Below are positions 13,963-35,632 of a stretch of 36,669 nt of DNA, piece after piece. The position numbers were made by a program, and so were the translations under genes. Every line of letters starts with the position of its first letter. Within the stretch, counting starts at the first letter, position 1. Source of the stretch: a virus; IMG/VR virus record IMGVR_UViG_3300032058_000130, positions 1 to 36,669 of that record; one strand, 5' to 3'. Below the pieces are notes generated by a model. The model had not been told where the DNA came from, searched no databases, and was given only the letters and a program-made list of their open reading frames with translations.

Positions 13963-13992
13963 CGGGTAAAGAGCGTGTTGGGGTCAAAACCA

Positions 13993-16017
13993 ATGGCAGA
14001 AAAGCGACGCTATATCGTTGATTTAGAAGACTTCAATCTTGTCTTGCCGCGTGTACAAGCGACAGGGGTTTCGATTCTGTCTATCCAGCCCGTTGTAGAA
14101 AGCTGCACCGTTGAATGCGATGCGGCGATGGTAGAAACGCTGCGTCGCATTGATGGCGTGCGTGGGGTGTTCCCCGACTTTGAAGCGGAATTGCTACTTA
14201 CGCAGGCCGTTGCAGAGGCGGAGAACGATTATTGGGCGTTGGCCAACATCTGCAACCGTGTCGGTGAATACCGGTCAATCTGCACGGGCTACGGCGTCGA
14301 TATTTGCATTATCGACACGGGGTTTAACCCGATGCACGCCGATTTTGGGCGGAACAGCGAGTGCAATACAGAGCCGATACAGCACGATATTTCAGAATTG
14401 CAACTGTCAAACAAGCCGCTGTTTGGCAATTTTTACCCATATCAGTTGCCAAACAGCGGAAACAGTTATAAAACAAACGGCTGGCCGCATTGTGTAACGG
14501 CCTATACATACAACTACCAGTTCCCTATTGTCGGTATTGACGAATACACGTGGTTGAGCAATCCGGATGCAAGAAACAATGTTGAGTTCATTGTTCATTT
14601 GGAACAAACACAGGACGTTTCCGAAAGGTTGGATGCGTTCTTTCTGGCGTTGCAAACACAGCCGGAACTCAAAAATATGTTCATACGCGGTGTTACAGGG
14701 TTCACGATAACTAATATAGTCGGCGATATCGTGGCTCCGAGCGGGTCTGTGGTGGAGCGGGTATCGACATGCAGCGTCAAATACCGCGTTGATTATGCAA
14801 AAAAAAGCGACCTTCTGCCCTATCAATCCGGCGGCGTAATGGTAGCCAGGACTTCAGTGACGGATACAATGGCGGATAGTTTTGGCGGTCGAGCAATGGT
14901 CATCCGGCCTGCATTTTTTTCTTCCAATGGTATTGTCGTAACCAACAATTATTACGCATCATATTGGTCGGCAAATGAATATTTCTCGCGTTATCGGCAC
15001 GGCCAATGCGTTGCAGGATGTGCGGCGGGGACAATGTCCGGCATTGCAAAAGGGGCGCATCTTTATTTACTGCCGACAAGAGCATCAACATCGTCTGTCG
15101 CTGTGGCGATTGAAGACGTAATCCAATTTCATCAATTCAAACTCGCACATCAGATAAATCGACCCACCGTTGCGAATATGTCTTGGACGATTACGATGGA
15201 AAAAAGACTACTTACGCCGCAGGAGCAAGAAGAAATAACACGGTATTACAGTTATATTGCTGAATTGATGGATGATTCGGGGGTTGTTTGGGTTGCCGCC
15301 GCTGGCAACAGTAAAATGCGGTTGCCGGCAGAGCAATATCTGATGTTCCCACAGCAAATCCGTCCGTCCACATCGTTAAATGCAGGCGCAATCGACATCC
15401 AGAACCGGCTGGCCTATTTCAGCAATTACGGCGCAATCGTTGATGTATTTGCGCCAGGACATCGTGTCAAGACAGCTAAAACCTATGGGATGCAACTTAA
15501 TACAGCCATTTATTTGCTAAGCCCGTCTGAAGAAGAAGAGAATTATATGTCTATCAGTGGGACATCGGTTTCGTCGCCTTATACGGTTGGCGTTGTGGCG
15601 TGCGCCTTACAGGCGGGCAGGTTTGGGATATTCGCGTCAAAGTCGCAAACGCATCAATTCCGCCAATGGTTTTTGACGCACTATACTCGAGCGTGGAATA
15701 ACGTCAAGCATTTTAACAGCGCAATTTCGTTGTCAGAAGTGCGTTCCAACCCATCGCTGCTCGATAACCCGAATAACTGGTTTGACGGTTTCCCGCCAGA
15801 CGATAACGGCAGTCCGGCGAAACTGCTTTATCTGCCGAATGCGGTGTTTGTGCGGGGTAACCATTGGGAAATCCCAGCCGTGTCGCACAGTTATGAGATG
15901 AACATTAACGGAGAACCGGCGACCGTTTATGATAACTATGTGAGCGTCAATGGCGTGTTGTACGGGTATGGGCAGACATTCAAATTGGGTAATGTTGTGT
16001 GTAAGGTTAAAAACTAA
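13993..16017 (+). CDS. Subtilisin-like serine protease (S8) with large insertion
   Basis: 674 residues from ATG 13993 (an in-frame GTG at 13975 is less likely). All subtilase signatures are present: catalytic Asp108 in IDTG, His336 in HGQCVAG, oxyanion Asn439 in AAAGNS, nucleophile Ser525 in SGTSVSSP. An N-terminal I9-like propeptide precedes them (RYIVDLEDF ... GVRGVFPDFE). In normal subtilases the Asp and His motifs are roughly 30-50 residues apart; here about 228, so roughly 180-190 residues are inserted, with a helical ERLDAFFLALQTQPELKNMF segment. The C-terminal 130 residues look like an added beta domain. There is no signal peptide, so it is likely virion-attached or acts in the cell. 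The stop overlaps the next start by one base (TAATG), tying it to the GLUG protein. Likely roles: maturation of fibre or virion proteins, or cleavage of host surface proteins. Confidence 0.93.
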   Translation: MAEKRRYIVDLEDFNLVLPRVQATGVSILSIQPVVESCTVECDAAMVETLRRIDGVRGVFPDFEAELLLTQAVAEAENDYWALANICNRVGEYRSICTGYGVDICIIDTGFNPMHADFGRNSECNTEPIQHDISELQLSNKPLFGNFYPYQLPNSGNSYKTNGWPHCVTAYTYNYQFPIVGIDEYTWLSNPDARNNVEFIVHLEQTQDVSERLDAFFLALQTQPELKNMFIRGVTGFTITNIVGDIVAPSGSVVERVSTCSVKYRVDYAKKSDLLPYQSGGVMVARTSVTDTMADSFGGRAMVIRPAFFSSNGIVVTNNYYASYWSANEYFSRYRHGQCVAGCAAGTMSGIAKGAHLYLLPTRASTSSVAVAIEDVIQFHQFKLAHQINRPTVANMSWTITMEKRLLTPQEQEEITRYYSYIAELMDDSGVVWVAAAGNSKMRLPAEQYLMFPQQIRPSTSLNAGAIDIQNRLAYFSNYGAIVDVFAPGHRVKTAKTYGMQLNTAIYLLSPSEEEENYMSISGTSVSSPYTVGVVACALQAGRFGIFASKSQTHQFRQWFLTHYTRAWNNVKHFNSAISLSEVRSNPSLLDNPNNWFDGFPPDDNGSPAKLLYLPNAVFVRGNHWEIPAVSHSYEMNINGEPATVYDNYVSVNGVLYGYGQTFKLGNVVCKVKN

Positions 16018-17471
16018 TGCCTATTGTAGAAATGGGGTCAACGATGGAAGTGCGATATTTATTCGAGCTTGTCCAGATTGAAACGACAGGACGAGCGGAA
16101 ACGTATGTCTTGAAGAACGAGATTGACGCCTCGGCTACAATGCAGGCGGCTCCGGCGTGGGCGGCGTCCACTGTCTATGAAAAGTGGGAGGTTGTCCGCA
16201 CGGGCGGCAGCATCTATCAGTGCAAGCAGGCGCACACGTCGGGCGCATCGTTTGAAAGCGACAATTGGATACTCGTGCGGGCGGAAGTGCCGTTGTACAG
16301 TAATGCTTCGACCTACGCGGTCGGCGATGTCGTACGGTACCCGACCACAACGCCCGACGGCGTGTACCAGTGTAAAGTGGAGATTACCGCCGGCGAGGAG
16401 TGGAACTCCGCAAAGTGGGTCAAGATTGCCAATCTTGGCTCTACGATGCCTAACGGATATGTGGGCGTCTGCAGCACGTCGGGGGCGGCCTTTATCGGTA
16501 CGCTGGACGGCGGCGGTTATACGATTAGGCATTTATACCAGTGGTCGAATACGACAGAACAACACGGACTGTTTGGGTATTTAGGCGAAAACGGCGTGGT
16601 GCGAAACTTGTATTTTGCCAACGGTTGCCTGTACCGCTTTGGGACTGGGGGTATAACGGGGACCACGGGTTTGGTGGCGGCGAATTTTGTGACTCCGAGT
16701 TTTAAGCCAATTACAATACAAAACGTTCACGCCATTGACTGCTTATTGCAGGGTGGCAACAGAGTTGGGTCTTTTGTCGGAGAAGCAAATAGCTGTTTCA
16801 GGATATCAATCCAAGAGTGTTCGTCCAACGCCATCGTAAAATCGAATTCGTCGTTTGTAACGGGCGCTTTTGTCGGTGGTCTTGTTGGTAGCGGTGTTGT
16901 TGGTTATAAACCTTACGGTACCGGAATAAAGAGATGTTTGTTTAACGGGTCTTTGTACGGCAATTCGTCAACGAAAGCGCATGTGGGTGGGCTGTATGGC
17001 GGTTTTAGTGCTACTACTTCAGCCATATGCGCCGAGGATTGTATCTTTTCAGGCAGTATAACCGGCTCGGTGGTAAAAGCAGGTGGGATTGCGGCTACGG
17101 CGTTAAGCCAAGACGGGAATTATTACATTAAAGCCTGCCTGAACACGGGGACTATATCTCTGGCGGCGGGAACAAAATACGGGATAAATGAGAACATCGG
17201 CTATGTCGAGAACTGCTATTACGATACGCAGACCACCGGATGCACTGATAGGCCAACGCAGCAGCGCACGACAGAGCAAATGAAAAAACGGAGCTTTCTG
17301 GTCGGGCTGGATTTTGACAGGATATGGTATCTGCCAAAATCGCCTGTTATCGCAAGCCCGTTTAACGGCGGTTATCCCATCCAGCGACATTGGATAGACA
17401 TTCAGTCCTCCGGCGTATCCGGCGGCAGTAATATGCGTGGCGCTGCGTCGCTACTGGGGTTTGGATTATGA
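16017..17471 (+). CDS. Putative fibre or adhesion protein with carbohydrate-binding and GLUG-like repeats
   Basis: 484 residues from ATG 16017, sharing one base with the protease stop. Two short repeats at about residues 46-88 and 92-135 share the pattern STVYxxGxVV..GxIYQCK..HTSG..xxxxW, like the chitin-binding (CBM5/12) type fold. From about residue 145 comes a beta-helix-like region with GLUG motif features: GTLDGGGYTIRHLY, HGLFGYLGENGVVRNLYF, then VGGLVGSGV and VGGLYGGFSA. GLUG repeats occur in bacterial surface proteins and adhesins. Tail end unrecognised. A receptor-binding or tail-fibre protein is most likely; it may also be a substrate of the coupled protease. Confidence 0.75.
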   Translation: MPIVEMGSTMEVRYLFELVQIETTGRAETYVLKNEIDASATMQAAPAWAASTVYEKWEVVRTGGSIYQCKQAHTSGASFESDNWILVRAEVPLYSNASTYAVGDVVRYPTTTPDGVYQCKVEITAGEEWNSAKWVKIANLGSTMPNGYVGVCSTSGAAFIGTLDGGGYTIRHLYQWSNTTEQHGLFGYLGENGVVRNLYFANGCLYRFGTGGITGTTGLVAANFVTPSFKPITIQNVHAIDCLLQGGNRVGSFVGEANSCFRISIQECSSNAIVKSNSSFVTGAFVGGLVGSGVVGYKPYGTGIKRCLFNGSLYGNSSTKAHVGGLYGGFSATTSAICAEDCIFSGSITGSVVKAGGIAATALSQDGNYYIKACLNTGTISLAAGTKYGINENIGYVENCYYDTQTTGCTDRPTQQRTTEQMKKRSFLVGLDFDRIWYLPKSPVIASPFNGGYPIQRHWIDIQSSGVSGGSNMRGAASLLGFGL

Positions 17472-17887: not shown

Positions 17888-18811
17888 ATGCCGCTGTCTG
17901 ACTACAACGTATCGCGGCTGTTTCTCTACCGCGCGGTACAGGAAGCGCGTACGAATATCGACGAGCCGGGGGTCAGCGCCAAGTACACGGACGCTATGCT
18001 TCTGGATAAGATACAACAGGCGTACACGATGGTACTGGGAGAACTGCGCCGCAATGCGCAATCTCCGGTTGTTATTCCATTCCCTGTAACACTGGAAGCG
18101 GGGAAACACGAATACCCCCTCCCCTACCATATTGCAGGCGTCCACTCCGTGTTCGAGGAAGACAACTTCAAGGGACGTTTGTTCTGGCACAGCCGCAGCC
18201 GGTACAGCCCCTACGGACCCGGTGTACGGATAGAGGGGACGACGCTCATTGTCCCGAACCCAGACGAACTGGCCGGCACCGAGCTTACGGTGGAGTGTCT
18301 TCCAGGAGGCGCGGCTACCTTCCACATCGGAACGTTCAGTAGTACGGCTGTATCTGAAGACCGCAAGACGATAACCCTGCCGCAACAGCACACCCTGTTA
18401 TTGGGGGCGTTGGATACCCGTCGTCACGCCTATATCGGCTCGCTTATCCGTGTCGTAGGGTCGGATGGGTACAGCGGAATGGAAGAACACCTTATTGTCG
18501 CCTACAATCGCGATACACGACAGGCCACCCTCCAGACGCCCATTGACAACGCGCCGCTGGGCGGCCCGAACAATGCGCTCTATGAGATAGCCCCGCTTAT
18601 CTACATTGGACTTGACCACGTCGTCGGCCTCTACGTAGCGCGCTGGATAGCGGGAATCGAGGGCCACACCTCCCGCGCACGAGAGCTGGCTCGGATGTAT
18701 GCCGATGGGATGCGCGTCGTGCGCCTGAACGCATTCTATTCCCGAGTGGACGAATCCCTGAAAGTACGAGGCGATACACACGACCGCAGACGTTATATGA
18801 CAAGGGGATAA
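17888..18811 (+). CDS. Putative head-tail adaptor (tail tubular A-like) protein
   Basis: 307 residues from ATG 17888, with GAGG about 6 nt upstream. The N-terminus has a helix pair (YTDAMLLDKIQQAYTMVLGE) in the style of head-completion and adaptor proteins that bind beneath the portal. A beta middle follows (YPLPYHIAGVHSVFEEDNF), and a C-terminal helix (YVARWIAGIEGHTSRARELA) such as closes T7 gp11-type and related adaptors. This order (terminase, portal, capsid, adaptor, nozzle) fits a short-tailed phage. The assignment rests on layout and pattern, not on a diagnostic motif. Confidence 0.6.
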   Translation: MPLSDYNVSRLFLYRAVQEARTNIDEPGVSAKYTDAMLLDKIQQAYTMVLGELRRNAQSPVVIPFPVTLEAGKHEYPLPYHIAGVHSVFEEDNFKGRLFWHSRSRYSPYGPGVRIEGTTLIVPNPDELAGTELTVECLPGGAATFHIGTFSSTAVSEDRKTITLPQQHTLLLGALDTRRHAYIGSLIRVVGSDGYSGMEEHLIVAYNRDTRQATLQTPIDNAPLGGPNNALYEIAPLIYIGLDHVVGLYVARWIAGIEGHTSRARELARMYADGMRVVRLNAFYSRVDESLKVRGDTHDRRRYMTRG

Positions 18812-18814
18812 CCA

Positions 18815-20617
18815 ATGGCGCAGCAATTCACCCAGAGCGGGCATAACGTTCGGTATATCCCTACCACCCCGCCTACCGGCGATTACCACAGTGCACCGGC
18901 AGGAAACCGCGGACTGCGACTGCGCCCGCTGACTGGAGCTGGAGCCGCAGTACGTCCGATCGTGGTTCCAGATATGGTTCAGCAGGCAGATGCAGGTATG
19001 GACACAACGTTCCTCTACGCCAAAAGTCCAGACGGGCAAATACAAGGGATGTTGGGGTATATAGACGACCTGTCGTTTGGGGACATCGCCTCGAAGTTTG
19101 CGGCGCTGATTCCGCAGATGAACCCCTTTGACGGCCTCCCCCAAATGCCTATCCCCGCGCTGACGATACCAAAATACAGAGGCACCCCGGCTCCTGTTGC
19201 ACCCGCTATACCATCTGGAACCACGGGCGGTGGAAGCACGCCTTCATCGGATTTCTCGTCGTATTATCAATCGCCGTCGTCCACACAGGGGGGTATCCAG
19301 ACCTCTACAGAGCTGCCGTCGTTTCCGCCTTCAAGTAGTGAGCCGAGCGGCGATAGCAGCAGCAGTAGTGAAGTTGTATATCGTTGTTGGAAGAAATATG
19401 TGTTTGCAAATACCTGGTGCGGGAGCCCTCCTTATTATCTGGAATCGCACCTATGCTTACCAGAGGGTGTATTGCCGGGTGGAACGGGCGATACGTGCAT
19501 ACCCCATACTCATTGTGGAATGTCGTCCAAGTGGGTATTGATGCCGGATACGTATCCGACCGCCGGCGCTTGCTACACGGAATGTAGGAGCGCGTTCTGG
19601 GAGTGTTGGGAGAATAACAAGTACAACGCCGAAGATAGGGATTGTAGTGGTACCCCTTATTATACAGAAAGACGGTGCGTGCCGCAGGGTAATTGGGGTT
19701 ATGTTTATTATCCAACGCCTGCTGCGTGCTGTCGTCCAGTTGGAGAACCGGGGTTGGTTAGTTATTATGAAAGAGAGGAATTGGTTTATACAACACTATA
19801 TACTTCCTATAGCGCATGTACAGATGATTGTGAGGAATCAAGTTCGCCCTCATCCTCAGAACCTCCGTCATCCGATGGTTTTCAGTCTTCTTCTTTGACT
19901 TCTTCGTCGTCGTCATCCTCGTCATCATCGAGTTCTTCCTCCTCCTCGTCATCATCGTCGTCTTCATCGAGTAGTAGTAGTAGTAGCAGTAGTAGTAGTA
20001 GCAGCAGCAGCAGTGTTGGAGTAGCGAACCCGTGTCCTATTTTGGTTGCAACGCCACGTTCGGCTACAGTTACGCCGAGCGGTGTTTTATATTGTGACGC
20101 GTGTGGCGGTCCTGGATGTGTACATAACTACTCAGATTTCTATGACATAAATGGGGTGAGTGTGCATTGTCCATATAACAGCTCGTCGCAATGTACGTGG
20201 GGGTACACGTTTCCTCCAGACCTTGAAGCGGACCTTATTCTATATCGAGTAAAGAATATGTACTCAGAATCCCCATGTGTTGGAAGCTCTTATGGTAGGG
20301 CCGAATGGTGGGGGCATCCTCCCTATGGGTATGTATCTGTGTCTTCTGTGTTTTCTGGCGGTGTCTATAAGTTAATGCTGGGTGCAACGTACTTTCGTAA
20401 TACAGTTCCGCCTTTAGAAGTTCCGTCTTTCGGTGTATCTGGAGAAGTTGAAACAAGCGCAACAGGTATCTTTGATATTCGTGGGAAATCTTATACTCTC
20501 CCTGTCTATCCAGGTGGTAGTTGTGCTGGTTTCTGTGTGACAGAAGGGGGCGGTTGTGCCAACTGGATAGGCGAGTGTTTGAATGAGGCGTCGCTTACTG
20601 TTACGTTTTCGCGTTAG
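18815..20617 (+). CDS. Cysteine-rich virion protein with 38-serine linker
   Basis: 600 residues from ATG 18815, with AAGGGG (18802-18807) at 7 nt. Layout: N-terminal 120 residues of ordinary phage-like sequence; Pro/Ser/Thr-rich linker to about 190; a cysteine-rich domain about 190-340 with repeated WxxCW and CYTEC features; a polyserine run of 38 consecutive Ser (codons 19901-20014); a second Cys-rich beta domain to the end. Serine codons mix all six types. From about 19380 the DNA is more AT-rich than the N-terminal part, suggesting that the C-terminal part was acquired. Two copies of the 14-bp motif lie within the first 140 codons. The next genes are glycan-modifying enzymes, so the serine stretch may be glycosylated; that is inference. 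Probably an exposed fibre or decoration protein. Confidence 0.78.
   Translation: MAQQFTQSGHNVRYIPTTPPTGDYHSAPAGNRGLRLRPLTGAGAAVRPIVVPDMVQQADAGMDTTFLYAKSPDGQIQGMLGYIDDLSFGDIASKFAALIPQMNPFDGLPQMPIPALTIPKYRGTPAPVAPAIPSGTTGGGSTPSSDFSSYYQSPSSTQGGIQTSTELPSFPPSSSEPSGDSSSSSEVVYRCWKKYVFANTWCGSPPYYLESHLCLPEGVLPGGTGDTCIPHTHCGMSSKWVLMPDTYPTAGACYTECRSAFWECWENNKYNAEDRDCSGTPYYTERRCVPQGNWGYVYYPTPAACCRPVGEPGLVSYYEREELVYTTLYTSYSACTDDCEESSSPSSSEPPSSDGFQSSSLTSSSSSSSSSSSSSSSSSSSSSSSSSSSSSSSSSSSSSSVGVANPCPILVATPRSATVTPSGVLYCDACGGPGCVHNYSDFYDINGVSVHCPYNSSSQCTWGYTFPPDLEADLILYRVKNMYSESPCVGSSYGRAEWWGHPPYGYVSVSSVFSGGVYKLMLGATYFRNTVPPLEVPSFGVSGEVETSATGIFDIRGKSYTLPVYPGGSCAGFCVTEGGGCANWIGECLNEASLTVTFSR
18960..18973 (-). 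repeat. Dispersed 14-bp motif, copy 5 (one mismatch)
   Basis: ATCTGGAACCACGA on the - strand, inside the N-terminal coding part of the Ser/Cys-rich gene, reading through VVPD. Confidence 0.7.
19213..19226 (+). repeat. Dispersed 14-bp motif, copy 6
   Basis: Exact ATCTGGAACCACGG inside the Ser/Cys-rich gene, translated as SGTTG. Confidence 0.85.
19901..20014 (+). repeat. Serine-codon tract, 38 codons
   Basis: 114 bases of uninterrupted serine codons. The first 23 are TCN apart from one AGT; the last 15 are AGT or AGC. Adjacent units differ, so the tract is not a clean trinucleotide repeat, which argues for selection at the protein level. Confidence 0.9.
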
Positions 20618-20625
20618 TTAGATAT

Positions 20626-20979
20626 ATGCAGTGTGAAATCAAGCAAAAAAATAAAGATAAATCCAGATTCTTCTGCGCGTATAAGAATGCGTGGATATAC
20701 CACTCGTTCTGTGTAGATATGGCGTGCGAGCGTATGGTTGGCGGCGTAGGCGACCTGCCGCCGTTGGCAGAGCAGATAAAGTCGGTGGCGTCGGCGGCGC
20801 TGCAGCAGATAGCGGCGGGCAATCCGCAGCGAACGCCGGAAGAAGTGGAGCGGCTTAAGGCGATATGCGAGGAATGTGAATGGTATATGCCGGACAAGAT
20901 ACGGTGTCGTAAGTGTGGGTGTTATCTGAACGTGAAACGGAGATGGGCGACAGCGAGCTGTCCGTTAGGGAAATGGTAG
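20626..20979 (+). CDS. Small zinc-ribbon protein of the CPLGKW type
   Basis: 117 residues from ATG 20626; no clear ribosome site, and an internal ATG at 20719 is possible. The C-terminal 36 residues hold four metal-binding pairs or singles: CEEC, CRKCGC, and a final CPLGKW. The pattern CxxC ... RCxxCGC ... CPxGKW is a recurrent small zinc-binding protein type in phages; as I recall it often sits next to glycosyltransferases, as here. Two bases separate it from the next gene. Confidence 0.65.
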   Translation: MQCEIKQKNKDKSRFFCAYKNAWIYHSFCVDMACERMVGGVGDLPPLAEQIKSVASAALQQIAAGNPQRTPEEVERLKAICEECEWYMPDKIRCRKCGCYLNVKRRWATASCPLGKW

Positions 20980-20980
20980 T

Positions 20981-22174
20981 ATGCAGAAGACAGAAGAGCC
21001 GTTGGTAACGATTATCATCAACACGGATGGGCGGTGCCCCAACTTGTTGGAAGAAGCGTTGTGGTGCGCGCTGAATCAGACGTATAAGAATATACGGGTA
21101 CATGTTGTATGTACGCATCCTGATGGCGTGCGGTTGGCGATACCGGATGCACGGGTGCGTATTTTCAACGTGGAGCCGTTTCCCAGATTTCCGTACCAAT
21201 TGCTGTGGTCGGTGGAACAGATACAAGAGGGGTTGTGGTGTACGTTGGATTCGGATGACCTTATTTTTCCGCATCACGTAGAAACAATGGTTAAAGCCGC
21301 CTTGCCCGTGATAGATAGAGAACAGTTATGGGAAAAGGACGGGTGGTGCGTGCGCAGCGCGTATGCGATGGCGGCAGCCAAGAATACGCCGATACAGGAG
21401 TTCTCCCCGAGCTGGGTACGCTGCTTATATACGCCGCTAACCAACGCACAGAGGGAGTTTTTGCGGGGGTATATACTGCGACTCTTAAGCAATGGTTCGT
21501 TTGATGTGCATATTAAAAACACATTCCGAGAATATAAAGGGGCCAACATGATGTGGCCGCCTACCTATGTGTACCGGCTTGGGTTGTCTTACCACATCAG
21601 TCGGGAATATCTGCGAAATCCGAGCGCTGTTGTGCCAGAGCGTTTGGAGCCGTTTCGACCGTGTATTCGGGTTGACTTTGGAGAGATACACCGGATATAT
21701 ACGACATATTGCACGCATAGGAAGGGGTGGTCGTTGGAGCGGCGTGAATGGATGCGATTGCTGAAGTGGGCGCATAAAATGGGGATACAACGTCTCTGTG
21801 AGTTCGGGTCTGGATTAACTACTATATTGCTGGACACCGTCGGGCGATTGGCGGTCAGTTACGAAACATCGCCGATATGGAAAAAACATACAGAAGAATG
21901 GATGCAGAAGACGGGTATCGTACAGCTATGGGATGGAATAGACGTACCCAACTTATCGCCCTATGATGCGGTGTTTATCGACGGACCGCGGGGGGGTAGA
22001 AATCGGCGGCCTGTTTATGCGGCAGTGGGACAAAGAGGCCCCTACTATGTGATAGCGCACGATGCACAGCGAAGCCCAGATTGTGACTATATCAAAACGT
22101 ATCTGCTTCCGTACTATACGGTAAGGAAAACATCTGGACAACTGTTGTTATTAACGAGAAAGATACAGCGATGA
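20981..22174 (+). CDS. Glycosyltransferase (GT2-like) fused to a class I methyltransferase-like domain
   Basis: 397 residues from ATG 20981. The N-terminal part (about 1-110) has the family 2 GT-A pattern: PLVTIIINTDGRCPNLLEEA, LNQTYKNIRVHVVC, and CTLDSDD with the metal-binding DSDD at residues 90-93. The middle is unassigned. The C-terminal part (about 260-397) resembles a SAM-dependent methyltransferase: CEFGSGLTT (273-281), VSYETSP and YDAVFIDGPRGGR (328-340). A GT-A domain transfers a sugar from a nucleotide sugar; the second domain could methylate the glycan. It overlaps the next gene by 4 bases (ATGA) and follows the Ser-rich virion gene with one small gene between. Confidence 0.75.
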   Translation: MQKTEEPLVTIIINTDGRCPNLLEEALWCALNQTYKNIRVHVVCTHPDGVRLAIPDARVRIFNVEPFPRFPYQLLWSVEQIQEGLWCTLDSDDLIFPHHVETMVKAALPVIDREQLWEKDGWCVRSAYAMAAAKNTPIQEFSPSWVRCLYTPLTNAQREFLRGYILRLLSNGSFDVHIKNTFREYKGANMMWPPTYVYRLGLSYHISREYLRNPSAVVPERLEPFRPCIRVDFGEIHRIYTTYCTHRKGWSLERREWMRLLKWAHKMGIQRLCEFGSGLTTILLDTVGRLAVSYETSPIWKKHTEEWMQKTGIVQLWDGIDVPNLSPYDAVFIDGPRGGRNRRPVYAAVGQRGPYYVIAHDAQRSPDCDYIKTYLLPYYTVRKTSGQLLLLTRKIQR

Positions 22175-22995
22175 TGACACATCCTGCAAAACAAGTAGAA
22201 CCGCTATTTACGCGACCCGGGGGAACTCCAGCGGGGCTGGACAATCTGTTTTTGGGGAAGGCGGCAGTGCTGATATGCAACGGGCCAAGCGCCGAGCAGG
22301 TGGACCCTTACTTGTTGGATAAGCCGGGTTTTGTGACGATGGGGATTAACAACGGGTCGCACATCATAAGGCCGAATCTATGGTGCGCGCAGGATTCGCC
22401 GACAAAGTTTATGGCATCGATATGGGAAGACCCCAAGATTATGAAGTTTACACGGAAGTCGTATAATAAGGCCGCTTATACGCCCGAAGATGTTCAACCG
22501 ACGCGATGGGTCAGAGATTGCCCGAATCTTTTTTTCCATCGCATTAACTCGCACACAGAAGCGCACGATTGGTTCGACCGCACCTCGATTAGTTGGGGGA
22601 TACCGGATGGAAAAGGAGGGCACCGTGTTTCCACGTTTATGTGCGCGATGTGCGTACTATACCGATTAGGCATACGAGAGATTGCAATTATAGGAGCCGA
22701 TTTTCGTATGACCAAAGAACAGCCGTATTTCTTTGAGGAAAACAAATCCGATAGCGGCATAGCATCCAATAACGAGTTGTATCGCCTTATGAATGCATTT
22801 TGCGCGCAGTTGTATCCTATAATGCTCAGCAAAGGATTACAGGTTGTAAACTGCACTCCTAACAGCGGCTTGACTGCGTTTCCTACAATGCCGTTTGAGG
22901 AATGGGTGGCCCGTCACGCGTTGTCGATTGAGGAATCTACAGAAGGGATGTATAATAGACCGATGCATAAACAACCGAATGAAGTAAAGAGGTAG
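22171..22995 (+). CDS. MptE-like / sialyltransferase-like protein of the glycan cassette
   Basis: 274 residues from ATG 22171, overlapping the previous stop (ATGATGA). It shows AVLICNGPSAEQVD near residue 32, GINNG, IIGADFRM in the middle and VNCTPNSGLTAF near the end. This set (NGPS, IIGxDF, NxTPxSxL) is typical of the DUF115 / 6-hydroxymethylpterin pyrophosphokinase MptE-like fold and of bacterial CST-II type sialyltransferases, which it resembles. Phages often carry such genes beside glycosyltransferases. Substrate unknown. Confidence 0.68.
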   Translation: MMTHPAKQVEPLFTRPGGTPAGLDNLFLGKAAVLICNGPSAEQVDPYLLDKPGFVTMGINNGSHIIRPNLWCAQDSPTKFMASIWEDPKIMKFTRKSYNKAAYTPEDVQPTRWVRDCPNLFFHRINSHTEAHDWFDRTSISWGIPDGKGGHRVSTFMCAMCVLYRLGIREIAIIGADFRMTKEQPYFFEENKSDSGIASNNELYRLMNAFCAQLYPIMLSKGLQVVNCTPNSGLTAFPTMPFEEWVARHALSIEESTEGMYNRPMHKQPNEVKR

Positions 22996-22998
22996 TCT

Positions 22999-25740
22999 AT
23001 GGCGGACAATACCTATATCACATATGAAATGCAGGGGGCGTATATGGACGCCTCTGTGCCTACCAACCGCGTTAAGCCGGGTTCGTTTGGGTATTTGGCT
23101 GGATTTGACGGGCGGTTTACAGGCGGACTGCGGAAGTTTCTGGGGATGACTTATGTCGGAAATATGCGAAACGGCACCACGCCGTACGGGGATTTGCGGA
23201 ACGGGCGCGTTCGATTGTTTCGTTTCGTGCATATTCGGTACGATGCCACAACGACGTTCGATGGATTTGTATTAGTGCTGCGGGATTCCGAACTACCTGA
23301 AGGCAATTACGATGTATGGTGGTATTATCAAAAGAAAGTCAACGGAGTTGCGGGCGATTGGGAAAGATACAGGATACGACAAGCTATCTCGTTGGCGTCG
23401 ATTGACAAGGTGGATTGTGTCAGCGACGATAACCGATTCTATGTCACGATAGATTCCGTTGAAATCCTAACCGTAATGGTCAACAATGTGAACGCCTCGC
23501 CGGTAACATGGACGGTGACCGGAATGGGCGCCGGGCCCTATGTGGAGCCCGGCGGTCAGGTGGAGCATCTGGGCAATGATGTAGATACAGCCCAGAAACA
23601 CTATCTTAACGGGATGGGTACGTTCCAGATTGGGTGGCGATTCGCATCCAAAGCACGCGGTATTGTCGGCGCGATGTCGGAGTTAGTGACCATCACGCTG
23701 GACCATCGCGCACCCAGCAGGGCAACAGGCGCTGTCTATGTGAATACGAACTCGGGTGACGATGGGCAGTTCGTGGACGGCGACATCGTCAGGATAGGAA
23801 GTCACAGATATGAAATGGATACCAACAACAGTGTGGCGGGGAATAACATACGCGTAAATATAGCTGGATTGAACCTGAATGTCCCAGAGCAGTTGCGCCG
23901 ACTGGCGGCGGCTATTAACGCTAACACCGAAGGGGCTGCGACAGCGGTACCGGGGCAGATAACGTTGGCGCTGACAGCGCGTATCCCCGGCGCCGATGGG
24001 AATACTATAGCATTGCAGGTTACGGAAGTGGGTACAGAACAGAACGACCTGTCTGTATCCGGCAATACACTCAGCGGAGGGGGCGCTGTCGTGGATGTTC
24101 CAGAGCGGTATTGTAAGATAACAATAGGGCTTCCGCAGTGGTCGTCGGTGTCGGCGCAGTACGGGGAAACATACGCGCAAATGGCCGCGCGTTGGGATAC
24201 CATAGAGATATTCCGCACTATCGACTTAGGCCAACAGGCGCTGTTTGCACAGATGGCGGGGTATCTCTACAAAGAGCAAGAGATTTCGGTGCCGGCGACA
24301 AGTACAGACTGGAACAATGTGGAGATACAAGTAGGCAAATTATTCGACCAATCGCTATTGTTCCAGACCCCCTACAATCCCACTACGGATGTTGTCAAAG
24401 CAGTACCGGCTGGACGGGCGATTGTTCGCTACGAGAATATCACGTTCGTAACACAGCCTGCCAGCGAAAACGATGGGCTGAACATTTCCCATAGCTCGCT
24501 GCGGCACGACAGCGGCGAGTACTTCTCGACCTACAACGAACGGCGGGGACTTCCTATAGAGGGGCCGCCAATACGGATGGTGAATGTGGCGGATGCGATG
24601 GTTGTCATCTGCAGCAATTGTCTTCTCCAAACCTCAAAAGCTGCAGAAGGGTACCCCCTCATTTACACGCGCTATCATCTTGGGAGAGGCGGTATTACGC
24701 CACAAGCCGCACACGCGGTAGGGAATATCCTGCTTTTGCTGACGCGCAATGGATTGATGATGGTGCACGGCGGGTCTATGGAGATGGCGCAGGTTGCCAG
24801 TACAATGCGTATCTTCTCTGAGCTGTGGGCGGACGACCTCCATTACCTTCAGAGCGCCTATGATAGCAGGATGGATTCCTCCTACATACTGAATCCTATC
24901 AAATGTCAGATGCTTCAGATTAACCATACCACGCAATCGGTTTGTATGATAGAAAATGCGCCCTTTGCGGCAATCGCCGAAGCCCACATCGCCGGCAGCG
25001 ACGGCGTCGTAACCAGCACCCTCTACGCACTGAGCAACACCCATCTGCGCCTCTATACACTGAAAACGGTGGAGGACGATTACACCTCAATGGCCGGCGT
25101 CAACGATACGCTGGATATGCGGGTTGTCAGTGTATCGGAATCCACCGGTTTTATCCGTGTGTACGGAGAAACCTCTCGTCCATTAACCGACCACGCGTTC
25201 CAATTGGTGGGGATGCACGCTTATCTCCACCTGCCGACCCAAAGTCTTCCCGTTCGTATTACGGGTGTACAATTCGACTCTATCACGGTAGAGCCGTTAT
25301 TTGGCATAAGCATCCCGTGGAGTACCATTGCGGCAGACACCGTCGTCACACTGGCCCCTGTGGTATGTAAAATACGGATGCCAGCTATCCGCTATATTCC
25401 GGCAGGTATTGAACGGAGGTCGTACAGCCAATTACCAGAAATGTCGCGTGTTGTGATGACCAGCGCCTCTGTTAAACTGTCCTACTTGGAAGGACACGAA
25501 CCGGCGGCAGACGCAGTACCGTGGCGCGCCGGCGCCTACAGGAACTCCTCTTCGACGCTCAGCGACAGCCAAACCTCTATTGTACTGAGCAAAAATCCCG
25601 CAGAGGCCGTCGGCGCATTGCGGATAGACGGTATCGACATAGAGCCGTATCTTGAACACATCAGCACAGAAGTAAGATTTGAATTGACAGTAGCCGATAT
25701 AGGTGTTATACTGCCTATGAGTCGTAAAGTAACCACATAG
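22999..25740 (+). CDS. Putative tail nozzle or tail tubular B-like protein
   Basis: 913 residues from ATG 22999, with GAGG at 6 nt. Nearly all beta sequence: VKPGSFGYLAGFDGRFTGGL at the start, many Thr/Val/Asn repeats, and repeated VYVNTNSGDDGQF-like strands. A large beta-rich protein following an adaptor is the place of the nozzle or tail tubular B protein in short-tailed phages (gp12 of T7, gp10 of P22). No signature settles it. An alternative is a large beta-rich tail appendage. Confidence 0.55.
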   Translation: MADNTYITYEMQGAYMDASVPTNRVKPGSFGYLAGFDGRFTGGLRKFLGMTYVGNMRNGTTPYGDLRNGRVRLFRFVHIRYDATTTFDGFVLVLRDSELPEGNYDVWWYYQKKVNGVAGDWERYRIRQAISLASIDKVDCVSDDNRFYVTIDSVEILTVMVNNVNASPVTWTVTGMGAGPYVEPGGQVEHLGNDVDTAQKHYLNGMGTFQIGWRFASKARGIVGAMSELVTITLDHRAPSRATGAVYVNTNSGDDGQFVDGDIVRIGSHRYEMDTNNSVAGNNIRVNIAGLNLNVPEQLRRLAAAINANTEGAATAVPGQITLALTARIPGADGNTIALQVTEVGTEQNDLSVSGNTLSGGGAVVDVPERYCKITIGLPQWSSVSAQYGETYAQMAARWDTIEIFRTIDLGQQALFAQMAGYLYKEQEISVPATSTDWNNVEIQVGKLFDQSLLFQTPYNPTTDVVKAVPAGRAIVRYENITFVTQPASENDGLNISHSSLRHDSGEYFSTYNERRGLPIEGPPIRMVNVADAMVVICSNCLLQTSKAAEGYPLIYTRYHLGRGGITPQAAHAVGNILLLLTRNGLMMVHGGSMEMAQVASTMRIFSELWADDLHYLQSAYDSRMDSSYILNPIKCQMLQINHTTQSVCMIENAPFAAIAEAHIAGSDGVVTSTLYALSNTHLRLYTLKTVEDDYTSMAGVNDTLDMRVVSVSESTGFIRVYGETSRPLTDHAFQLVGMHAYLHLPTQSLPVRITGVQFDSITVEPLFGISIPWSTIAADTVVTLAPVVCKIRMPAIRYIPAGIERRSYSQLPEMSRVVMTSASVKLSYLEGHEPAADAVPWRAGAYRNSSSTLSDSQTSIVLSKNPAEAVGALRIDGIDIEPYLEHISTEVRFELTVADIGVILPMSRKVTT

Positions 25741-33363: not shown

Positions 33364-33559
33364 AGGCGACCTCGGCAGCTTGATGTACGGCTTTCGCCGC
33401 CGCCTGTCGCCGCCGCTCTGTCCGCTCTTTGTCCCTGCAATACCGACACACGGGGTCACGATATGGGTATTTCTTGTTCGTTTGGCGGAAGTAATTGTTG
33501 CTCGGATATTGCGTCCCGCATCTGCGGCATATCTTAATAGGTTTCAGTTCGATTGCCAT
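33350..33559 (-). CDS. Small zinc-knuckle protein
   Basis: 69 residues, start ATG at 33559 with GAGG about 7 nt upstream on the - strand. Two CxxC pairs (CRRCG and CRYC, about 27 residues apart) are followed by a strongly basic helix (RDKERTERRRQAAAKA). The pattern matches the treble-clef end of HNH/endonuclease VII-like proteins, without catalytic histidines. It overlaps the methyltransferase gene by 26 bases and ends inside the end of the + strand operon. Confidence 0.72.
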   Translation of the reverse strand: MAIELKPIKICRRCGTQYPSNNYFRQTNKKYPYRDPVCRYCRDKERTERRRQAAAKAVHQAAEVASTSA

Positions 33560-34553
33560 TTATAACCTCGCTTTCTCGACGATAGGTTTCTATCCGATGA
33601 TTTGCCAACTCCACATAGGCGGGGTTCAACTCTATCCCGAAGAACCTTCGCTTAAGACGGAGGGCAGCCACTGCTGTCGTCCCGCTTCCGATGAACGGGT
33701 CTAATACAATCCCCAGCAACGCGCGGCTACCCGCTTTAATGCACAACTCAACTAATTCCTCAGGGAACGTTGCAAAGTGCGCTCCTTTGTAAGGCCGCGG
33801 TGCAATCGTCCATACCGACCGTCTGCGCCTCAGTTTTGTCCCGTCCTCCGCTACCAGCGGCCACCGTTCATGTCCCCGGCTATGCGCTCCATGCCCATTC
33901 TGTCCGTTCGGTAAATAACAATGTGCGTTTGCATACTTGACGCTTCCCTTCATCTTGGTATCCTGCCTGCCGTCATAGGACGCTTCTTCCGCTAATGCCT
34001 CCCAATCAAAGTAGTAGTATGGCCTCTTTGACAGCAGGAATACATATTCGTGCGCCTTTGTACATCTATCTCTGATACTTTCCGGCATTGGATTGGGTTT
34101 GTGCCATATGATATCCTGTCGCAAATACCAGCCGTCGGCCTGCAACGCAAACGCCACCCGCCACGGAATGCCGGCAAGGTCTTTGTCCTTAAGTAAAGGA
34201 TGGCCCCGCAAATCAGGTCGGTTATTTTCGATAGGTTCCCCTCGATGTTTGCCGCTTAGCGTTTGCGCGGAGGATGAGTACCGTCCTTTGGCCGACACGT
34301 AGCTGTCGCCAAGATTGAGCCACAATGTGCCGTCGTCCCGCAGTACGCGCCGCACTTCACGAAAGACTTGTACCATCTTGTCCACATATTCTTCCGGCGT
34401 CTTTTCAAGGCCGATTTGGCCATCCACCTTGTAATCCCGCAAGCCCCAATACGGAGGGCTGGTAACGCACATACACATACACGCATTAGGCAGTTCCCGC
34501 AACACCGTCAACGCATCGCCGCATACAATCGTATTGCTTCTGTTTTCGCTCAT
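33534..34553 (-). CDS. DNA methyltransferase (TSPPYW type)
   Basis: 339 residues from ATG at 34553. A beta-class amino-methyltransferase: catalytic motif IV TSPPYWGLRDY at residues 31-41 and SAM-binding motif I DPFIGSGTT at 285-293, with motif X-type GIELNP after it. The order IV ... I identifies the beta group, which methylates N4 of cytosine or N6 of adenine; TSPPYW often goes with N4-cytosine or CcrM-like enzymes. No cognate endonuclease is seen. Likely protects phage DNA from host restriction or acts in regulation. Five bases separate it from the next methyltransferase gene. Confidence 0.93.
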   Translation of the reverse strand: MSENRSNTIVCGDALTVLRELPNACMCMCVTSPPYWGLRDYKVDGQIGLEKTPEEYVDKMVQVFREVRRVLRDDGTLWLNLGDSYVSAKGRYSSSAQTLSGKHRGEPIENNRPDLRGHPLLKDKDLAGIPWRVAFALQADGWYLRQDIIWHKPNPMPESIRDRCTKAHEYVFLLSKRPYYYFDWEALAEEASYDGRQDTKMKGSVKYANAHCYLPNGQNGHGAHSRGHERWPLVAEDGTKLRRRRSVWTIAPRPYKGAHFATFPEELVELCIKAGSRALLGIVLDPFIGSGTTAVAALRLKRRFFGIELNPAYVELANHRIETYRRESEVINGNRTETY

Positions 34554-34558
34554 TGCAA

Positions 34559-35632
34559 CTATTCCCTTATTTTTCTGCTATGCTGTATTCGCGCTTCTGC
34601 TATACGTATATACGTAGCGTCCAGTTCGACGCCTATAAACCGAAATCCTTCCAACATACAGGCCTTGCCCGTGGTTCCAGAACCCATAAAAGGGTCAAGC
34701 ACTATACCGTTGGGCGGCGTGATGAGGCGACATAGATAGCGCATCAAGTCGGTGGGCTTTACCGTCGGGTGATTATTTGTGCGATGCTCTCCGTCAGCCC
34801 CGCCAAGCCCTTCGTTTCTATCCTGTTGGTTGGCCTTAGCACAGTAAAAAAATCGAGCCGCTGAACCTTCGCTGGCGGGGACATCGGCATACCGTTTTGC
34901 TCTGTATTTGCCGTAAATGCCGTGATTGTGCATATACCCATCCGCGCCGCCTATCCGATAGTTGGAACTTCGGGTACCGCTTCGCTGATACGGAAACAGC
35001 GATACTGCTTCATCGCTTCCGTCGTGTATGAGATTAGCCGGCCAGCGACCGATACTTTCGTAATACTGTGTATCGCTGCCCCTGCCTTCCGGCCCTCCGG
35101 CAAACGTCCCAGCCGGAGCGTGATGCGCCAGCATAGATTCGGTTCCTACCTTACACGCTTTGATATTCAGCGCGCCAGTGCCGTAGTGCGATAGGTTCTC
35201 GATAACGGTACCTTCCAGCGGCTTGCGCGCCAAACAGATAGGCTCACACGCCGGTTTCAGCGCAGTTCCCCATCCGTCCCATTTTTCGGCAAATCGTCCC
35301 GCGTTCAGGGATTTTGGAAAGCCGCTCCCGTACACCCACATTATCGTATCGCGTATCTCCCATCCTGCGTCTTCGATAGCGCATACAAGCCGATGGTACG
35401 TGCGCGTCCCTCCGAACGCCAACAGATGTGCGCCTGGCTTTGCGACCCGCAGTATCTCTTTCCAGAAATGTTCACCGGGTACCCCCCTATCCCAGTCTTT
35501 TCCCATAAACGTCAGCCCATACGGCGGGTCGGTAACAACGCTATCGACGCTGTCTGCCGCCAGTGTCGGCAATATCTCCAAACAATCCCCTTCGTATATG
35601 CGATAGTCATTATTCGGCTCCACTTGACTCAT
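34559..35632 (-). CDS. DNA methyltransferase (DPPY type)
   Basis: 357 residues from ATG at 35632, overlapping the stop of the upstream gene (ATGA). Catalytic motif IV TDPPYGL at residues 34-40, the HPTVKPTDLMRYL segment and motif I DPFMGSGTTGK at 313-323 show a beta-class DNA amino-methyltransferase; DPPY favours N6-adenine. A large central insertion (residues about 150-270) may hold target recognition. It differs clearly from the neighbouring enzyme, so the pair is not a recent duplication. Confidence 0.93.
   Translation of the reverse strand: MSQVEPNNDYRIYEGDCLEILPTLAADSVDSVVTDPPYGLTFMGKDWDRGVPGEHFWKEILRVAKPGAHLLAFGGTRTYHRLVCAIEDAGWEIRDTIMWVYGSGFPKSLNAGRFAEKWDGWGTALKPACEPICLARKPLEGTVIENLSHYGTGALNIKACKVGTESMLAHHAPAGTFAGGPEGRGSDTQYYESIGRWPANLIHDGSDEAVSLFPYQRSGTRSSNYRIGGADGYMHNHGIYGKYRAKRYADVPASEGSAARFFYCAKANQQDRNEGLGGADGEHRTNNHPTVKPTDLMRYLCRLITPPNGIVLDPFMGSGTTGKACMLEGFRFIGVELDATYIRIAEARIQHSRKIRE
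34669..34682 (-). repeat. Dispersed 14-bp motif, copy 9 (one mismatch)
   Basis: TTCTGGAACCACGG on the - strand, in the methyltransferase gene. It encodes part of the conserved GSGTTG motif, so selection on the protein may explain it. Confidence 0.55.

Follow-up and report, generated by a model that had tools for sequence, protein, structure and literature searches.

In the window, a 36,669-nt stretch of viral DNA (IMG/VR record IMGVR_UViG_3300032058_000130), a Cys-rich protein with an unbroken run of 38 serines is followed directly by genes for a zinc-ribbon protein, a glycosyltransferase (GT)-like protein and a sialyltransferase-like protein, and among the IMG/VR matches listed, no fewer than five further phage lineages also have Cys-rich polyserine proteins followed by GT genes. 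We read the serine protein as a putative modular tail fibre or spacer and the three genes 3' of it as its candidate modification cassette, which would glycosylate the serines, a reading that we propose tentatively and rate just short of an even chance. The comparisons below suggest that glycosylation is better supported than the first-pass annotation of this DNA, which had proposed it, could know, with the chemistry itself still putative.

Five plus-strand ORFs stand in a row between 18815 and 25740, separated in the ORF list by successive gaps of 8, 1, -4 (an overlap) and 3 nt. The first (18815-20617, 600 aa) encodes the Cys-rich polyserine protein, presumed to belong to the virion and the tail module from what the same slot holds in four relatives. 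It is followed by the small zinc-ribbon protein (20626-20979, 117 aa; CEEC...CRKC), by a GT2-like glycosyltransferase with a methyltransferase-like C-terminus (20981-22174, 397 aa; PF00535 and motifs in the translation), by a sialyltransferase-like protein (22171-22995, 274 aa; phrog_4603/CST-I-like) and by a 913-aa tail protein (22999-25740) that marks the right boundary of the slot. The left boundary is an SU10-like head-tail adaptor (17888-18811, plus strand; PF24175, 0.0019), and both boundary proteins are conserved in relatives. The first-pass annotation had described a serine run, a zinc ribbon, a GT2-methyltransferase and a third gene as tightly spaced and inserted inside the tail module; the ORFs and the gaps of 8, 1 and -4 nt match the former, and synteny with the relatives bears out the latter. 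Elsewhere in the window, a virion-module protein upstream of the adaptor (16017-17471) carries a CBM5/12 chitin/cellulose-binding domain (Pfam, 2e-9), a phrog_3677 'protease' match (13975-16017, 1e-24) lies 3' of the capsid gene and not 5' of it, and two adjoining N6_N4_Mtase DNA methylases occupy 33534-35632 on the minus strand (1e-50 and 4e-31). As to the host, a single MCP relative lies on an Egibacter MAG contig, a link too weak for an assignment.

Within the polyserine protein, an N-terminal part of ~180 residues (18815-19354), presumed to anchor it to the virion, is followed by a first Cys-rich block with 14 Cys (19385-19831), the Ser38 tract (19901-20014) and a second Cys-rich block or C-terminal domain with 11 Cys (20033-20578), all on the plus strand; the 25 Cys fall at residues 191-339 and 407-588, outside the serine tract. 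GC3 drops along the protein from 0.59 in the N-terminal part, like the neighbour genes, to 0.44 in the first and 0.38 in the second Cys block, and the enzyme genes, at 0.55-0.64, lie near the neighbour genes. This drop is compatible with a resident anchor to which an exposed part was added by acquisition, and it says nothing on a joint arrival of the enzymes. The tract itself uses all six types of serine codon (TCG 9, TCA 6, TCC 4, TCT 3, AGT 11, AGC 5), with TCN codons first and AGY codons after them, and tandem-repeat analysis shows the AGT/AGC half to be partly repetitive and the TCN half to be diverged. Because the six codons are mixed, the tract is not a pure trinucleotide microsatellite, and slippage is excluded as its only source. 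Runs of this type are likewise excluded as products of chance: the real sequence has 15 matches to a 25-codon WSN run, versus 0 in 100 shuffles, and the longest serine run in any ORF among 56 random viral loci (505 kb) is 7. Pfam and PHROG searches of the 600-aa protein gave no match, and when the serine, GT and sialyltransferase-like proteins were each searched singly against viral contigs and the phages of INPHARED, no relatives came up except for one short GT2 match in Acinetobacter phage MD-2021a. The highest 19-aa hydropathy in the serine protein is 1.08, and neither it nor the enzymes contain a membrane-like segment by hydropathy, which fits a modification carried out in the cytoplasm before assembly.

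The zinc ribbon is solidly assigned (phrog_13558, 1.4e-13; DUF6171, 2.7e-5), and the GT2, methyltransferase and sialyltransferase names given to the enzymes in the first-pass annotation proved weaker than their titles. Zinc-ribbon proteins of the phrog_13558 type are found in 105 phage records, and in cyanophages their common neighbours are genes for ribonucleotide reductase or an oxygenase rather than virion genes; since the family occurs in such unrelated contexts, in cyanophages and in Stenotrophomonas phages, it was rejected as a specific marker of glycosylation. PF00535 (GT2) matches the 20981-22174 product at 0.0053 and 17.1 bits, under the Pfam cut-off of 23.3, and at 6e-5, still under the cut-off, in the own-genome search of the window; the GT2-like part spans residues ~8-107 and has an acidic metal-binding motif, DSDD, at residue 90. 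The other half is methyltransferase-like by its motifs alone (EFGSG, FIDGPRGG) and has no match in the Pfam and NCBIfam profile libraries. The 22171-22995 product, a putative CST-I/GT42-like enzyme, matches phrog_4603 weakly (4.9e-5) and PF06002 under the cut-off (0.085), and its alternative assignment to MptE falls, as no DUF115 match is found in Pfam or NCBIfam. A PDB sequence search returns designed TIM barrels only for the sialyltransferase-like protein and a sub-threshold heparosan synthase for the GT-like protein, and AlphaFold models of both from single sequences, with a pLDDT of 32, are uninformative. Sub-threshold matches and models of this quality are what an annotation error would produce, the two proteins then not being sugar-transfer enzymes at all, but this seems barely credible to us with two independent weak glycan-enzyme matches side by side, the DSDD motif, and well-scoring GTs in the corresponding slot of other phages.

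Relatives of the virus were collected by terminase and capsid searches, and four of their records (G002, G004, G007 and G008) reach the slot between adaptor and tail protein. In these four, the adaptor is 34-39% identical and the 913-aa tail protein 29-35% identical, with 31-33% over alignments of ~900 aa. The protein encoded in their slot is 352 to about 840 aa long, and a collagen-like GPPGPPGPP linker connects its N-terminal ~100 residues to a C-terminus that varies. No recognised enzyme lies in their adaptor-tail gene slot, no serine run longer than 5 occurs in their slot regions, and no PF00535 gene is present anywhere in their 52-54 kb records; for the third enzyme of the window, a search run without a positive control gave no relative in nine related records. 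The window's serine protein has polyserine and no Gly-X-Y (GP.) repeat, and its N-terminal part aligns with those of the collagen-linker proteins at an hhalign E of 0.17, a value that does not stand out from those of other window proteins. Because homology of the N-terminal parts is unsupported, the equivalence of the slots is one of position only; as this position holds a collagen-linker protein in the relatives, it would be that of a modular fibre or spacer. Within this small sample, the serine tract and the enzymes appear to come and go together in the lineage.

A GPPGPPGPP-type linker in this slot in four relatives is also what one would expect if the polyserine were a mere flexible, soluble spacer and the enzymes had another target. 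Polyserine linkers of Saccharophagus and Teredinibacter CAZymes, for which the available portions of two reports describe no dedicated glycosylation cassette (PMC2386152; PMC2699552), point the same way, as do the many phage polyserine proteins that have no GT neighbours. We take this explanation seriously and still find it rather unlikely, since it leaves unexplained both the simultaneous gain of tract and enzymes in the window lineage and the varied GT and methyltransferase families found behind Cys-rich polyserine proteins of unrelated phages.

Long polyserine is not rare in phage proteins: an IMG/VR scan for TCN4-AGY4 found at least 119 stretches, with serine runs reaching 63 among the matches listed. 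Two recurrent forms seen in the scan are proteins of ~330 and ~740 aa in marine phages, with a C-terminal Ser9-21 followed by GYGY or GGYGGY (L028, L030, L031, L034 and many others), and a head-region family whose polyserine of 25-35 residues adjoins a portal-like gene and has no GT neighbours (L051, L089, L135, L058, L062, L139). In contig L007 (10895-11962), the terminase homologue is split into two halves ~1 kb apart, possibly by an intron or intein, and L024 shows a similar split.

Pfam was run on 140 neighbours of 25 polyserine loci with serine runs of at least 18, which revealed GT neighbours at L036, L056, L097, L123 and L127, and a reading of the Cys-rich proteins added L117/L092 and L108. 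The Cys-rich polyserine protein is followed at L117/L092 by a small Cys protein, GT25, a GT-like protein and a methyltransferase; at L123 by a small Cys protein, a GT-like protein and GT25; at L127 by GT9/GT4 and a methyltransferase; and at L097 by GT4, GT64-like, GT2, FkbM and GT2-like genes, after which a GT25 lies on the opposite strand. At L108, the polyserine protein, with Ser63 and Cys, precedes a Cys-rich region fused to a GT2. The co-occurrence of such tracts and enzymes, which had been suggested as a check on the original proposal, is therefore found at L117/L092, L123, L127, L097 and L108. A small Cys-rich protein or region comes after the polyserine protein in the window, L117/L092, L123 and L108, and a methyltransferase follows the GTs at L117, L127 and L097 and is part of the GT2 fusion in the window. 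Enzyme families differ from locus to locus (GT2, GT4, GT9, GT25), and one GT-like family and GT25 are common to L117 and L123. Since the enzymes are homologous between only some of the loci, these look like the same plan assembled repeatedly rather than one block inherited. In the contigs of L097, L117, L092 and L108 (G014, G017, G019 and G020), the PF00535/PF01755 matches all adjoin the serine gene, and tape-measure-like genes just 5' of the L097 and L123 loci indicate the tail module again; the L036 record has a second GT gene at another place. At a further locus (L214, at 50-69 kb of a 94-kb record), a Ser38 and a Ser48 protein flank a GT2-GT4 gene, with a methyltransferase-like gene upstream.

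Counted as independent families, with the window and the hand-found L117 left out, Cys-dense polyserine families have a GT nearby in 4/6 cases versus 2/16 for Cys-poor ones (p 0.025), a split drawn after the data were viewed, and versus at most 2/22 random sites (p 0.0096), where one control set was counted among the families listed, 11 low-ranked families lying outside. All polyserine loci taken together do not differ significantly from random sites (6/22 vs 2/22, p 0.12). Because of the post-hoc split, the 11 unlisted families, this p of 0.12, and a GT at L108 that came from reading an open ORF passed over by the automatic step, the association between polyserine and GTs is suggestive to moderate. 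Two Cys-dense polyserine families (L089/L051/L135 and L080/L090) have no GT nearby, and one or two random control loci have GT-type enzymes without polyserine (Mannosyl_trans3, GT92).

Cyanophage S-SRM01 has a relative of one enzyme in a large sugar cluster that contains no polyserine, GT25 and GT9 are, by Pfam name, typical of LPS biosynthesis, and the surface glycans of the host are a frequent target of phage GTs, according to the available portions of one report (PMC12619734). These observations would suit enzymes that remodel the glycans of the host surface, in receptor masking or superinfection exclusion, with the Ser/Cys protein as a co-evolving receptor-binding arm. We judge this distinctly unlikely: the genes lie within a late structural operon with gaps of 1-8 nt, which implies expression with the virion proteins rather than early, neither a membrane segment nor a flippase is present, and host-surface remodelling gives no reason to expect Ser-rich proteins beside the enzymes again and again. 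Alternatively, the serine tract could be a bystander and the enzymes could have another virion target, e.g., the Cys-rich blocks or the adjoining 913-aa tail protein. Mycobacteriophage glycans offer a precedent, as the same portions of that report place them on capsid and tail-tube C-termini and not on polyserine (PMC12619734), but relatives that have no such enzymes still conserve the 913-aa tail protein and the recurrent adjacency is with the serine protein, which makes this option quite improbable.

Returning to glycosylation of the serines, we infer the virion location of the serine protein, the activity of the enzymes, the serines as acceptors and the docking by the zinc ribbon, and the following sequence of events could be envisaged. 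The N-terminal part would fix the serine protein to the virion, and the polyserine and Cys-rich modules would form an exposed arm where the relatives have their collagen-linker protein. In the cytoplasm of the infected cell, the GT2-like and sialyltransferase-like enzymes would use host nucleotide-sugars to assemble a short O-linked glycan on the serines; the methyltransferase domain would then cap this glycan, and the zinc ribbon may bring enzyme and substrate together as a dock. More broadly, and with greater doubt, these loci could represent a recurrent, unnamed cassette in which a Cys-rich polyserine tail protein, a small Cys/zinc-ribbon protein, interchangeable GTs and a sugar methyltransferase give tail fibres brushes of mucin-like, capped glycans, with the plan kept and its enzymes freely exchanged between phages. 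If so, virion glycosylation would be a widespread strategy beyond mycobacteriophages, and its genetic signature would be polyserine together with a tail-module GT cassette; many orphan glycosyltransferases of uncultured phages would gain a testable substrate, and the maintenance of long serine homopolymers by phages would be partly accounted for.

Serine-rich repeat adhesins (SRRPs) of Gram-positive bacteria have dedicated Gtf glycosyltransferases encoded in the same cluster. The window resembles this arrangement in that a Ser-rich protein adjoins GT genes, as it also does at L117, L123, L127, L097 and L108. However, the window protein has no signal peptide or hydrophobic segment, its tract is a homopolymer and not a repeat, and its gene is part of a phage structural operon; moreover, none of the three window genes matches a GtfA/GtfB-type O-GlcNAc transferase in Pfam or NCBIfam.

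Polyserine linkers (PSL) are common between the domains of Saccharophagus and Teredinibacter carbohydrases and are also known from those of Cellvibrio, according to the available portions of the reports cited (PMC2386152; PMC2699552), and poly-Ser/Thr low-complexity regions were associated with polysaccharide-processing proteins in a survey (PMC6821194). Like a PSL, the window's Ser38 is a near-pure serine stretch of tens of residues between separate domains, here two Cys-rich blocks, whereas PSL proteins are secreted bacterial enzymes and the window protein is the product of a tail-module gene. Collagen-like tail-fibre proteins are known in phages, e.g., in E. coli prophages (PMC3368898), and share with the window protein a low-complexity, extended linker in a tail-module protein, which in the window lineage occupies the same slot; their linker is a Gly-X-Y triple helix and the relatives have no adjoining enzymes, whereas the window combines polyserine with enzymes.

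The closest comparison in function would be with mycobacteriophages (Che8, Rita and others), in which phage-encoded glycosylation of the virion has been described (Freeman et al. 2023, as cited in the available portions of PMC12619734 and PMC11256854). Thus, the novelty originally claimed does not extend to a phage glycosylating its own virion, and it would be confined to the polyserine-cassette arrangement, of which no case was found among the open-licence papers searched. As far as those portions go, mycobacteriophage glycosyltransferases come from the phage and the glycans are covalently attached to its own structural proteins, a situation that is putative in the window; the parallel loci encode well-scoring GTs, whereas the window's GT2 is sub-threshold and its phrog_4603 match weak. 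In mycobacteriophage Maravista, again from these portions, the GT genes are placed close to the 3' genome end, whereas the window's enzymes follow right after the tail-module polyserine protein, in a cassette that, unlike the mycobacteriophage type, includes a zinc ribbon and a methyltransferase domain.
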